Source: Pseudomonas versuta
Lineage (GTDB): Bacteria > Pseudomonadota > Gammaproteobacteria > Pseudomonadales > Pseudomonadaceae
DNA length: 64,000 nt
Direction of reading: 5' to 3'
NCBI RefSeq assembly: GCF_001294575.1
Contig: NZ_CP012676.1
Span: 5,085,789 to 5,149,788 of the forward strand
The notes under the pieces are model-generated. The model made no database searches and was not told the DNA's origin. It was given only the letters and a program-made list of their open reading frames with translations. Both the position numbers and the translations under genes were made by a program. This document shows positions 801-27,855 of the stretch, piece after piece. How positions within the stretch are numbered: position 1 is the first letter of the stretch; every line of letters starts with the position of its first letter.

Positions 801-1892
801 GTGGCGCTCAACAGCATCGAAGAACTGGTTGAAGACATCCGCCAAGGCAAGATGGTCATCCTGATGGATGACGAAGACCGCGAGAACGAAGGCGACCTGA
901 TCATGGCCGCCGAGTGCTGCAAGGCCGAGCACATCAACTTCATGGCGCGCTTTGCCCGTGGCCTGATCTGCATGCCGATGAGCCGCGAGCGCTGCGAACT
1001 GCTCAAGCTGCCATTGATGGCGCCGCGCAACGGTTCCGGCTTCGGCACCAAGTTCACGGTCTCGATCGAAGCCGCCACCGGTGTGACCACCGGCATCTCG
1101 GCAGCTGACCGCGCCCGTACCGTGCAGGCAGCAGCGGCCAAGGATGCCAGGGCGGAAGACATCGTCAGCCCGGGGCACATCTTCCCGTTGATGGCGCAAG
1201 CGGGCGGTACCCTGGCCCGCGCCGGCCACACCGAAGCAGCCTGCGACCTGGCGCGCATGGCCGGGTTCGAGCCGAGCGGCGTGATCTGTGAAGTAATGAA
1301 CGACGACGGCACCATGGCCCGCCGCCCGGAGCTTGAAACCTTCGCCGCCGAACACGGCATCAAGATCGGCACAATTGCCGACCTGATTCACTACCGCATG
1401 ATCCACGAACGTACCGTTCAGCGGATTGCCGAACAGCCACTGGACAGCGAACTGGGCCAATTCAACCTGGTGACCTATCGTGATTCAGTCGAAGGCGATG
1501 TGCACATGGCACTGACCCTGGGCAAGATTTGCGCCGAAGAACCGACGCTGGTGCGTGTGCATAACATGGACCCGCTGCGTGACTTGCTGATGGTCCGCCA
1601 GCCCGGCCGCTGGAGCCTGCGCGCCGCCATGACTGCGGTGGCAGAGGCTGGCAGCGGGGTGGTGCTGTTACTGGGTCACCCCCTCGACGGTGATGTATTG
1701 CTGGCCCATATTCGCGAAACCGCTGACCAGGTGCCGGCGAAAAAACCGACCACTTACAGCATCGTGGGTGCCGGTTCGCAGATCCTGCGTGACCTGGGCG
1801 TGCGCAAAATGCGCTTGATGAGTTCACCAATGAAGTTCAATGCCATATCCGGTTTCGATCTGGAAGTTGTAGAATACGTGCCCTCCGAATAA
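801..1892 (+). CDS. ribBA: 3,4-dihydroxy-2-butanone 4-phosphate synthase with degenerate GTP cyclohydrolase II domain
   Basis: The N-terminal half (about residues 1-200) is a DHBP synthase, which turns ribulose 5-phosphate into the four-carbon unit of lumazine; the acidic motif DDEDRENEGD lies at residues 23-32. The C-terminal half aligns in length with GTP cyclohydrolase II but lacks the zinc-binding cysteine cluster that the separate RibA at 4137 keeps (CLTGD...QRCDCG). It is therefore probably inactive as a cyclohydrolase. The start is GTG at 801, preceded by AAGGGGG. The product is 363 residues. RibB alone would also be a fair gene name. Confidence 0.92.
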   Translation: MALNSIEELVEDIRQGKMVILMDDEDRENEGDLIMAAECCKAEHINFMARFARGLICMPMSRERCELLKLPLMAPRNGSGFGTKFTVSIEAATGVTTGISAADRARTVQAAAAKDARAEDIVSPGHIFPLMAQAGGTLARAGHTEAACDLARMAGFEPSGVICEVMNDDGTMARRPELETFAAEHGIKIGTIADLIHYRMIHERTVQRIAEQPLDSELGQFNLVTYRDSVEGDVHMALTLGKICAEEPTLVRVHNMDPLRDLLMVRQPGRWSLRAAMTAVAEAGSGVVLLLGHPLDGDVLLAHIRETADQVPAKKPTTYSIVGAGSQILRDLGVRKMRLMSSPMKFNAISGFDLEVVEYVPSE

Positions 1893-1936
1893 AGACCGGT
1901 CGTGTCCTGTCCGAATTCGTGGCCCAATATCCTTAA

Positions 1937-1958
1937 AGAACGCACGCGAGTGCGTTCT
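1937..1958 (+). terminator. Intercistronic hairpin between ribBA and ribH
   Basis: A perfect 9-bp inverted repeat with a GCGA tetraloop lies in the 91-nt gap. It is followed by GGCTCTTT rather than a full U-tract, so it could be a weak terminator, an attenuator or an mRNA processing and stability element. It would separate expression of the upstream rib genes from ribH-nusB. Confidence 0.5.
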
Positions 1959-1983
1959 GGCTCTTTAATACGAGACATACCGA

Positions 1984-2460
1984 ATGACCCTGAAGACCAT
2001 CGAAGGTACCTTCATCGCCCCCAAAGGTCGCTACGCTCTGGTAGTTGGCCGCTTCAACAGCTTCGTCGTCGAAAGCCTGGTGAGTGGTGCCGTTGATGCC
2101 CTGGTTCGCCACGGTGTGAACGAAAGCGACATCACCATCGTCCGTGCTCCTGGCGCGTTCGAAATCCCGCTGGTTGCGCAAAAGGTTGCCCAGCGCAACG
2201 AATTCGCCGCCATCATCGCTCTGGGCGCCGTGATTCGTGGCGGTACCCCGCACTTCGAATACGTTGCCGGCGAGTGCACCAAGGGCTTGTCCCAGGTGTC
2301 CATGCAGTTCGGCGTACCGGTTGCATTCGGTGTGTTGACGGTCGATTCCATCGAGCAGGCCATTGAGCGTTCCGGCACCAAAGCCGGTAACAAAGGCGCT
2401 GAAGCTGCCTTGTCCGCCCTTGAAATGGTCAGCCTGTTGGCACAGTTGGAGGCCAAGTGA
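1984..2460 (+). CDS. ribH: 6,7-dimethyl-8-ribityllumazine synthase
   Basis: This 158-residue protein condenses 5-amino-6-ribitylaminouracil with DHBP to give lumazine, the substrate of riboflavin synthase. Family features are [18 protein letters not shown] near the N terminus, the [14 protein letters not shown] loop, and the [14 protein letters not shown] phosphate and substrate site. The length is normal for subunits of this cage- or pentamer-forming family. Its stop codon overlaps the GTG start of nusB, so the two genes are translationally coupled. Confidence 0.96.
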
Positions 2461-26690: not shown

Positions 26691-26712
26691 GGTTGGGTTT
26701 GACCCGCCTGCT

Positions 26713-27063
26713 TCAGTGGGTGGTTACCCCGTCCAGTGACTTGTCGACATAGGCTTTGGCCAGTTCCAGCAAATAGGCGATCGACAACACCCGATCCCGT
26801 GCCGCTCCGTCCAGGCCATTGCCTGCCTCACTTGCCGTGGCACCCGCGCAGCGCAACAGCTCTGACGCTTGGGCCAATGCTGCTTCCAGGTTGACGCCGT
26901 CGGGGATGGAATACAGGGCCGTGACCACGGGGCGATCAGGCTTGGGGTCGGGGAAGTAGTAATTGAGGGCGCGATCGGCGGCGGCACGGTCCAGCAACTG
27001 TTGATCGCTTGGCGCAGTATCTTGCAGGGTGAAAGAAGGCGGGTCGGGGACAATCTTCTTCAT
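26713..27063 (-). CDS. DUF6124-family protein of unknown function
   Basis: This 116-residue protein begins MKKIVPDPPSF and contains AAADRALNYYFPDP and a C-terminal helix-rich part ending LELAKAYVDKSLDG. This pattern matches the small DUF6124/DUF3077-type proteins that occur in many copies in Pseudomonas genomes; I place it by recall, not by a search. GGAG lies 8 nt before the ATG. The gene is preceded by a long structured leader with an intrinsic terminator, so it may be controlled by attenuation. Function unknown. Confidence 0.7.
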   Translation of the reverse strand: MKKIVPDPPSFTLQDTAPSDQQLLDRAAADRALNYYFPDPKPDRPVVTALYSIPDGVNLEAALAQASELLRCAGATASEAGNGLDGAARDRVLSIAYLLELAKAYVDKSLDGVTTH

Positions 27064-27300
27064 GGCTCAACTCCAGATACATCGACAGGAGCTGCCACTT
27101 GTCGCGACTAAACGAGTGGGTGGCAGCCGTACGCAGGTTAGTCGACCGGTGCATCTGGAAACCGGTGCGCCCGAGGGCGCCCTGCGCACGGCCACCATAA
27201 AGCGGAGGCCGAAAAAAAGCGCCTCGCTAAAGGTGGCGCTGATGCGCCAGATGACAAACCGGGCGACTAAACCCGATCGCTGATTTGCAGCGATGGACCC
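27064..27300 (-). ncRNA. Structured, switch-like 5' leader of the DUF6124 gene
   Basis: Read on the minus strand, a CATAGT -10-like element near 27312 precedes GGGTTTAGTCGCC (27262-27274). A stem AGCGCC/GGCGCT (27218-27240) followed by seven Ts at 27212-27218 forms an intrinsic terminator. Further on lie a GCGCC-CGAG-GGCGC hairpin (27167-27180), an ACCGGT stem (27145-27166), and a segment at 27119-27126 that can pair with either 27191-27196 or 27092-27098. CGACTAAAC occurs twice and its near complement GTTAGTCG once. Functional role is inferred. Confidence 0.5.
27212..27240 (-). terminator. Leader terminator (attenuator) before the DUF6124 gene
   Basis: On the minus strand a 6-bp stem AGCGCC...GGCGCT is followed directly by TTTTTT. 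It lies about 150 nt before the start codon and inside the leader, so it would stop transcription before the gene unless bypassed. Confidence 0.55.
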
Positions 27301-27413
27301 AGACTATGCCCCGATTTGAGCAGGCGCAAGCGAGCGGGATTTTCTCGGAAATTTCGTACGAATGAAAGTAAAGAGTCTTACAAAATGCCTAATTCTGCAG
27401 GCTTGTAGAGCGC

Positions 27414-27602
27414 TTGTGGCTGCAGTCCACGGATTTGTTGCAATGCAGTGTTGATTGGAGTAGCCGTGAAAGTGTCAGGGCCAGTTTGCGAATCTTGGTA
27501 CGGCGAATATTGCGCAAGTATAAATATCCCCCTGATCAAGCAGAGGATGCCGCACAGATGATTCTTAACCTGGCTGAGATGCTGTGTGAGGCTTGGCTGT
27601 AG
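27414..27602 (+). pseudogene. Relic of type I restriction subunit HsdR (C-terminal DUF3387 end)
   Basis: The 62-codon frame contains VDWSSRESVRASLRILVRRILRKYKYPPDQAEDAAQMIL, which resembles the extreme C terminus of HsdR (consensus like DWT.RESVRA.LR.LVKRILRKYGYPPD). No helicase or nuclease part and no hsdM or hsdS gene is present. The GTG at 27414 precedes the similar region by 12 codons, so an independent short protein is possible. Such stand-alone tails recur in Pseudomonas as far as I recall. Confidence 0.65.
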
Positions 27603-27620
27603 TGGGCTTTGCGACAGGCA

Positions 27621-27648
27621 TTAAAAAGCCGGCTTGTGGCCGGCTTCT
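27621..27648 (-). terminator. Intrinsic terminator hairpin
   Basis: A perfect 8-bp inverted repeat AAGCCGGC/GCCGGCTT with a TTGTG loop is flanked by AAAAA at 27623-27627, which is a U-tract for minus-strand transcripts. It may be a backup for ppa or end leftward read-through before the HsdR relic. Confidence 0.55.
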
Positions 27649-27855
27649 CGGGGGCGGGTTTGGCTTATTTTTGGTAAGCCGTACTCGCCTTCAATTTAGA
27701 CATCCAGGCCCTGATAGTCAGGGTTGGGGCGTGGCGGCTTATTGCTGCCTTGCCTGCGGTCCGGCCTGCTCGATGCGGGGCGCGGTGCTTATGTGGCGCG
27801 AATCATACGGGGATTCAATGTCGTTTCCCAGCGAAAACAGCTCAATCTTCGGACA

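Follow-up and report, generated by a model that had tools for sequence, protein, structure and literature searches.

In a 64,000-nucleotide (nt) stretch of the Pseudomonas versuta genome (hereafter the window), a small gene of the DUF6124 family lies on the minus strand behind a complex leader, and this leader holds an RNA of a known class, the antisense RNA C4. We consider it probable that this C4-type RNA, which is complementary to the Shine-Dalgarno region of the DUF6124 gene, acts as a repressor of that gene: it would block translation and, by way of an upstream site called b1, is predicted to end its own transcript early. At the level of sequence, this reading is supported by the match to C4, by the complementarity of the C4 segments a′ and b′ to the site pairs a1/b1 and a2/b2, by covariation of these contacts across loci, and by terminator and antiterminator arms that exclude each other. 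The genus-wide chromosomal expansion of C4, the private wiring of each copy and a recurring attenuator geometry look undescribed. The elements follow each other from 5′ to 3′ as promoter, c4-a1b1, terminator, C4, a2, c2, b2 and ATG (Table 1).

C4 (RF01695) and c4-a1b1 (RF03163) are the only Rfam matches above cut-off in the window. A first-pass annotation, made from the letters alone, had described a complex regulatory RNA leader here and noticed a resemblance to the C4-type RNA of phage P4. The Rfam search it proposed, C4 included, bears this out. The early terminator was found where it had been placed, and the multi-stem domain beyond it is the three-stem C4. In contrast, its proposal of an undescribed RNA regulator does not hold, since the match exceeds the cut-off of the C4 family, already described, by a wide margin and phages P1 and P4 show the same contacts; an undescribed RNA class is ruled out by the Rfam match. 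The minimum free energy fold (−49.3 kcal/mol) is the Rfam three-stem fold. Compensatory change, the other test proposed, was examined in 78 distinct C4s of exactly 87 nt, the length of 84 of 200 C4s. Here 98.1% of the stem cells are paired and two-sided changes occur at 19 of the 27 pairs, whereas sliding the alignment by 1–3 columns leaves 33–42% paired and 5–11 pairs with two-sided changes. Meanwhile, loop columns 47–53 have an entropy of 1.5–1.8 bits, which is nearly random, against a long-stem average of 0.45–0.47. At the 5′ edge of C4 we notice a GGU motif (27194–27196), a motif that comes from passages of PMC5320573 and belongs to the processing of C4 by RNase P to about 77 nt. The gene downstream is DUF6124 and not a phage antirepressor or replication gene; control of such genes is a trait of the P1 and P4 systems that lies outside the Rfam definition of RF01695.

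The a′ and b′ segments are complementary to sites around the downstream ribosome-binding site, a feature by which C4 RNAs are recognised. In the window, b′ forms a predicted duplex of 11 nt with b2 (−14.9 kcal/mol) and of 7 nt with b1 (−9.5 kcal/mol), while a′ pairs with a1 and with a2 over 7 nt each (−6.8 kcal/mol). In a third contact, the c′ strand GCTGCCAC either stands opposite TGGTGGC (27191–27197) in the C4 stem or pairs over 8 nt with c2, GTGGCAGC (−14.5 kcal/mol), and the two pairings are mutually exclusive, as the first-pass annotation had proposed. It was also right that CGACTAA faces both copies of TTAGTCG. Its pseudoknot of the CGACTAAAC copies with GTTAGTCG, however, is replaced by the antisense reading of a′ with a1 and a2, which covaries. 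The most telling contact, that of the b′ loop with the Shine-Dalgarno region b2 and with b1, had been overlooked. Its observations are confirmed, and its interpretation is partly supported.

Covariation of the contacts was examined in two sets. One comprises 124 C4 loci (94 of the 95 from three deeply searched genomes, the two of the own genome, and 28 top-scoring loci elsewhere in the genus), and the other 76 loci that were reached through the DUF6124 protein and not through the RNA. The score is the longest uninterrupted pairing, compared between cognate and non-cognate partners with 20,000 permutations. The b′ loop scores 8.17 with its own b2 against 5.25 with non-cognate sites in set 1 (n = 106 non-redundant loops), and 8.10 against 5.21 in set 2 (n = 64); none of the 20,000 permutations reached the cognate value in either case. 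The b′-b1, a′-a1 and a′-a2 contacts also gave 0/20,000 in both sets. The loop rule extends beyond the genus, where 28 C4 loci score 8.53 against 5.22 (0/20,000) and 19 of them rank their own target first. Because loop columns 47–53 are highly variable, the match of b′ to its target has been retained during sequence drift. Stem pairing, loop entropy and target covariation together indicate that the stems of C4 are kept and that its loop varies in step with the target.

Just upstream of C4, a terminator-like site is present in 78 of 200 leaders, compared with 13 of 200 shuffled leaders and 5 of 197 control stretches. In 66 of the 200 leaders we find a stricter three-strand motif, in which a middle strand can pair either with an upstream antiterminator arm or with a downstream terminator arm followed by T residues; the same motif occurs in 0.7 of 200 shuffled leaders (mean of ten) and in 0 of 197 control stretches. 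Where b1 is clear, it overlaps the antiterminator arm by exactly 2 nt at 54 of 64 loci. Blocking b1 raises the mean predicted terminator probability from 0.41 to 0.91 across 60 loci (up at 51, down at 2), whereas a control block gives 0.36 (up at 19, down at 22); these predictions are thermodynamic and not kinetic. In the window leader the value rises from 0.18 to 0.99, and with five assumed transcription starts from 0.01–0.05 to 0.96–0.97.

On the basis of these contacts, we speculate on the following course of events. A promoter near 27301–27329 would produce the leader RNA, with transcription probably starting near 27294. Read-through of the terminator would yield C4, which is probably excised by RNase P as in P1. 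The b′ loop and the a′ junction may then bind b2 and a2, so that the Shine-Dalgarno sequence is hidden. On new transcripts, b′ and a′ may bind b1 and a1, which would open the antiterminator and allow the terminator to form, and C4 would thereby limit its own supply and that of the gene. By analogy with IsrK-like RNAs, the short RNA that ends at the terminator may in turn titrate C4. In pT181-type attenuation, antisense binding favours the terminator over the antiterminator. The proposed scheme is alike in that the antisense RNA favours the terminator, but the RNA is unrelated and the Pseudomonas case adds a translation block.

Within a genome, the contacts appear to be private. When the scores of a′ and b′ are summed, 32 of 42, 23 of 29 and 20 of 23 C4s in the three deeply searched genomes have their best target in the gene directly downstream, where about one is expected. 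The median cognate score is attained by 3 of 1,722, 2 of 812 and 1 of 506 non-cognate pairs. Since up to dozens of copies, each with its own match, occur in related genomes, a given C4 likely shuts off mainly the gene behind it. A bolder reading, for which we find the scales about level, is that in Pseudomonas a phage immunity RNA has become a natural library of antisense switches insulated from one another. A chromosome would then carry dozens of C4 cassettes, and the private a′/b′ code of each would both flip the leader attenuator and cover the Shine-Dalgarno sequence of its own small helical protein; together they would form an unrecognised genus-wide regulon of domesticated antirepressor-like genes.

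C4 is widespread in the genus. It was found in 275 of 298 Pseudomonas genomes at an expectation value (E) of ≤0.001, in 274 of them above the cut-off, with at most 14 candidates scored per genome. A deeper search of 40 Pseudomonas genomes, with 82 candidates per genome, found C4 in 36; in 25 there are at least ten copies, and the maximum is 42. Class-wide, 24 of 369 genomes have C4, the own genome included (11 candidates scored). None of the 14 named control genomes in the genus, deeper and class-wide scans gave a C4 match. The statement in the earlier annotation that this leader recurs before other Pseudomonas small-DUF genes proved sound. C4 precedes 76 of 79 named DUF6124 loci that were found by protein among the best 80 of 95 relatives, a sample skewed to close relatives, and its match ends 46–60 nt before the start codon in nearly all of them (extremes 13 and 69). 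Two of the three misses start at a contig edge, and at the third (L272) the C4 stretch is mostly unalignable to the window.

Conversely, a DUF6124 or DUF3077 match lies within 450 nt downstream of 64 of the 94 C4s in the three genomes. With Pfam matches below cut-off included, C4 accompanies 26 of 34, 21 of 23 and 6 of 8 DUF6124 matches and 5 of 6, 3 of 5 and 9 of 12 DUF3077 matches. The two families are related (hhalign 96.8%), and the window protein itself matches DUF3077 (PF11275, 25.7 bits, cut-off 21). Inspected by eye, the other 30 C4s precede a third small protein (20), a Bro-N-like protein (four) or nothing intact (six). None of six members tried from the third family reached any Pfam cut-off, and a shared ancestry of this family with DUF6124/DUF3077 was unsupported by comparison. 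All three Bro-N-like proteins tried, of the four, are above the Bro-N cut-off, and one also matches PHROG anti-repressors. At L109, a Bro-N protein (1638–2153, plus strand, 41.2 bits) with the DUF6124-type N-terminus MIKVTPNPP stands behind a C4; judging from this sequence, the 5′ part of the cassette can become fused to a different gene.

About 690 bp, from about 330 nt 5′ of the ATG to just past the stop codon, are common to the window cassette and its counterparts in P. helleri, P. fragi, P. lundensis and relatives; this extent comes from blastn comparisons of the window with 32 named loci and of six P. helleri copies with each other. Six neighbouring open reading frames (ORFs) of the window, including a pyrophosphatase, were used as queries, and none had a match in the regions flanking the 79 named loci. 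The ORFs flanking the cassette mostly differ among ten loci, with some pairs alike (L244/L247, L248/L279). In phage and plasmid records, the cassette DNA matched two phages and four plasmids over parts of its length. One of them, Pseudomonas phage phiAH14b, has leader homology and also carries an AlpA gene. Two IMG/VR contigs appear to be P. psychrophila contigs already found, one of them having an identical length. The DUF6124 protein has no phage match at E ≤ 1 and no plasmid match at E ≤ 0.01; a DUF3077 example has no phage match at E ≤ 0.01, yet PHROG 36471 matches it. The own genome has one C4 locus besides that of the window (L001, G000:C1:290357–290443). It adjoins an AlpA gene (PF05930, 46 bits) and a DUF3077 gene (76.3 bits, cut-off 21), and a larger primase-like frame nearby is below the Pfam cut-offs. 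Because of these neighbours, we regard it as a mobile-element version of the pair of C4 and DUF3077 relative, and it is a possible source of the chromosomal cassettes. Most likely, the cassette began as an immunity module of a phage or satellite, which Pseudomonas chromosomes have retained and multiplied while every copy drifted to an a′/b′ code of its own.

The DUF6124 protein is kept by selection, because the median ratio of nonsynonymous to synonymous substitution rates (dN/dS) is 0.22 over 76 pairs of at least 80% identity (29 intact of 34 relatives). Its AlphaFold model is a confidently predicted helix hairpin (helices 59–82 and 86–114) with block means of 91–93 over residues 61–110 and a looser N-terminus; the mean predicted local distance difference test score is 77.4 and the predicted template modelling score 0.49. 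We tried to derive a function from this fold, but neither PDB nor viral structures gave a match at E ≤ 0.001; the best PDB sequence match has an E of 0.058. Against the PADLOC anti-phage defence models, the protein matched no family at E ≤ 1. Six relatives (P0011, P0033, P0041, P0074, P0104 and P0115) have the same C-terminal stretch behind different N-terminal halves, a mosaic pattern that suggests exchange among copies.

Several findings weigh against repression by a private C4 RNA with a leader attenuator. Covariation of c′ with c2 is weak (704/20,000 in set 1 and 26/20,000 in set 2). The strict three-strand attenuator is limited to 66 of 200 leaders, and some attenuator loci do not respond to the b1 block, such as L053 with 0.00 both ways. 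In P4 no switch is predicted (0.97 to 0.98), and in P1 only a weak one (0.67 to 0.997). The b′ loop alone ranks its own target first for only 19 of 42, 13 of 29 and 17 of 23 C4s, and insulation therefore needs a′ too. Moreover, 8 of 34, 2 of 23 and 2 of 8 DUF6124 matches in the three genomes lack a C4, some of them weak fragments, as do 2 of the 4 in the own genome, and no degenerate C4 was detected at five further C4-less genes tested.

The same elements could act only in cis, with the C4 of a transcript folding onto b2 of that transcript as a switch-like leader and no separate antisense RNA. C4 and its targets indeed lie on one predicted transcript, covariation cannot separate cis from trans, and a private pairing would equally suit such a device. 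However, b1 and a1 are upstream of C4 and are transcribed first, so that closing the terminator before C4 exists needs a C4 from another transcript. In addition, passages of PMC5320573 report that P1 C4 is cut out by RNase P and that, for C4-like RNAs of Acinetobacter baumannii, reads are much more abundant on the C4 part than in front of it. We see only a slim chance for the cis device. A second alternative makes the RNA that ends at 27212 an IsrK-like activator, which would switch the gene on by sequestering C4 or by restructuring the mRNA. The isrK model (RF01394) gives 42.9 bits over 27212–27294 (E 8.3e-8), below its cut-off of 50, and part of PMC4825925 reports activation of the read-through mRNA by the short IsrK RNA of Gifsy-1. 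Since a1/b1 mirror a2/b2, the short RNA is able to bind C4. Besides the low score, such an activity may coexist with repression by C4 as a decoy arm instead of replacing it, and we hold activation to be unlikely.

The C4 set could also be a bank of immunity RNAs that silence incoming phages or satellites with matching targets. C4 is described as a phage immunity RNA for P1/P7 in passages of PMC5320573 and for P4 in passages of PMC4825925, and the AlpA and DUF3077 genes at the second C4 of the own genome and the leader homology in the AlpA-carrying phiAH14b also fit this idea. On the other hand, most copies keep a gene behind C4, the tested DUF6124 relatives are under purifying selection, and the protein lacks the PADLOC, phage and plasmid matches looked for above; we regard defence as quite improbable. 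Inert prophage debris is disfavoured and seems barely credible. The six C4s without an intact small gene, some in tandem fragments, would suit it, but the two-sided stem changes, the covarying targets and the low dN/dS do not.

The closest known systems are those of phages. In P1 and P4, the junction a′ has one facing site just downstream and another upstream, and b′, the second hairpin loop, faces the Shine-Dalgarno sequence and an upstream copy; according to passages of PMC5320573, P1 b′ partly covers the ribosome site while a′ binds upstream of it. The C4 and c4-a1b1 of P1/P7 resemble the window leader in family score, in the junction a′, in b′ facing the downstream Shine-Dalgarno sequence and in the upstream a1/b1. 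In contrast, the window C4 is chromosomal and guards DUF6124 rather than icd-ant, its relatives reach up to 42 copies per genome, and its predicted antiterminator flip is stronger than in P1. The P4 CI RNA belongs to the same family (74.9 bits) and makes the same contacts. Unlike the window leader, P4 has no predicted antiterminator flip, and it guards replication genes (PMC4825925, in part). Parts of PMC4825925 report that CI RNA pairs with seqA and seqC and thereby causes termination; the C4 family therefore already has a known case of antisense-dependent termination. The leader of IsrK in Salmonella Gifsy-1 likewise ends in a terminator, but the action reported for IsrK in PMC4825925, in the passages concerned, is activation through orf45. 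The C4-like Group 1 small RNAs of A. baumannii are numerous as well (21 in one genome, 15 of full length) and have a variable target-specificity loop; the passages of PMC5320573 on them name no target, whereas the Pseudomonas loops point to the gene directly downstream.

C4 and c4-a1b1 both appear in the table of candidate RNAs of Weinberg 2010 (PMC2864571), as its excerpts show, and an excerpt of PMC9630843 mentions DUF6124/DUF3077 in passing. By title or opening lines, none of the open-licence papers listed by the literature searches treats these Pseudomonas cassettes, which is not proof of novelty, and excerpts of that literature on the C4 family contain neither the two-base b1 geometry nor the antiterminator flip.

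C4 is best known from a few phages, and the many C4-like RNAs of A. baumannii stand without named targets in those same passages of PMC5320573. Our findings support the rule that C4 is antisense, by its variable loop, to the Shine-Dalgarno sequence of the next gene, which gives each C4 a testable target. DUF6124 and DUF3077, two Pfam families of unknown function, thereby become accessible to functional assays. Should the insulation prove real, a single genome would contain tens of evolved antisense-target pairs, usable as regulators without crosstalk. The attenuator geometry, meanwhile, offers a clear molecular step for antisense-dependent termination.

Table 1. Elements of the DUF6124 cassette in window coordinates
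Element	Position	Strand	Support or detail
DUF6124 gene, putative regulated gene, 116 amino acids	26713–27063	−	PF19619, 49 bits (cut-off 27)
Cassette unit, ~690 bp: promoter, leader, C4 and gene	26708–27394	−	homology to most compared copies stops near the edges
Predicted −35 box, TTGCGC	27324–27329	−	17-bp spacer to −10
Predicted −10 box, TAGTCT	27301–27306	−	commonest −10 hexamer (38/150 loci)
c4-a1b1 element, RF03163	27256–27307	−	54.5 bits (cut-off 46.7), E = 5.3e-11 over the window
a1, TTAGTCG, target of a′	27264–27270	−	a′-a1 covariation
b1, CATCTGG, target of b′	27247–27253	−	last 2 nt common with antiterminator 5′ arm GGCGC
Predicted antiterminator hairpin, TGGCGC/GCGCCA	27234–27249	−	three-strand motif and folding prediction
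Intrinsic terminator	27212–27240	−	stem 27218–27240, AGCGCC (27235–27240) with GGCGCT (27218–27223), then seven T (27212–27218)
C4 antisense RNA, RF01695	27116–27202	−	80.9 bits (cut-off 45), E = 2.8e-14 over the window, full length (1–87)
b′ loop of C4, TTTCCAGATGCA	27150–27161	−	11-nt match to Shine-Dalgarno region
a′ junction of C4, CGACTAA	27138–27144	−	exact match to a1 and a2
c′ 3′ strand of C4, GCTGCCAC, third contact	27120–27127	−	8-bp match to c2
a2, TTAGTCG	27105–27111	−	a′-a2 covariation
c2, GTGGCAGC	27091–27098	−	8-bp match to c′
b2, TGTATCTGGAG	27071–27081	−	contains Shine-Dalgarno CTGGAG, 7 nt upstream of ATG

The promoter pattern, which presupposes T[AC]...T at −10, was found at 150 of 200 loci. 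With a 17-bp spacer, the commonest −35 boxes are TTGCGC (32) and TTGTGC (20), and 33 of the 150 loci have no TTG at 16–18 bp. Many cassettes share boxes 5′ of −35, namely TTCCGAGA (32/150 loci), TCGTACGA (26/150) and TCCTAGGA (12/150). They are possible sites for a common regulator, and close relatives inflate these counts. By eye, a GTG mini-ORF overlaps the DUF6124 start, which may parallel icd of P1. A 62-codon ORF on the plus strand (27414–27602), immediately upstream of the cassette, matches PF11867, the C-terminal domain of type I restriction endonucleases, but only over its last part (positions 280–328 of 329, 63.4 bits); by this match it is what remains of an hsdR-like gene. The adjoining stretch 27600–27800 (minus strand) is intergenic, with no Rfam match above cut-off, and contains terminator-like hairpins by eye.
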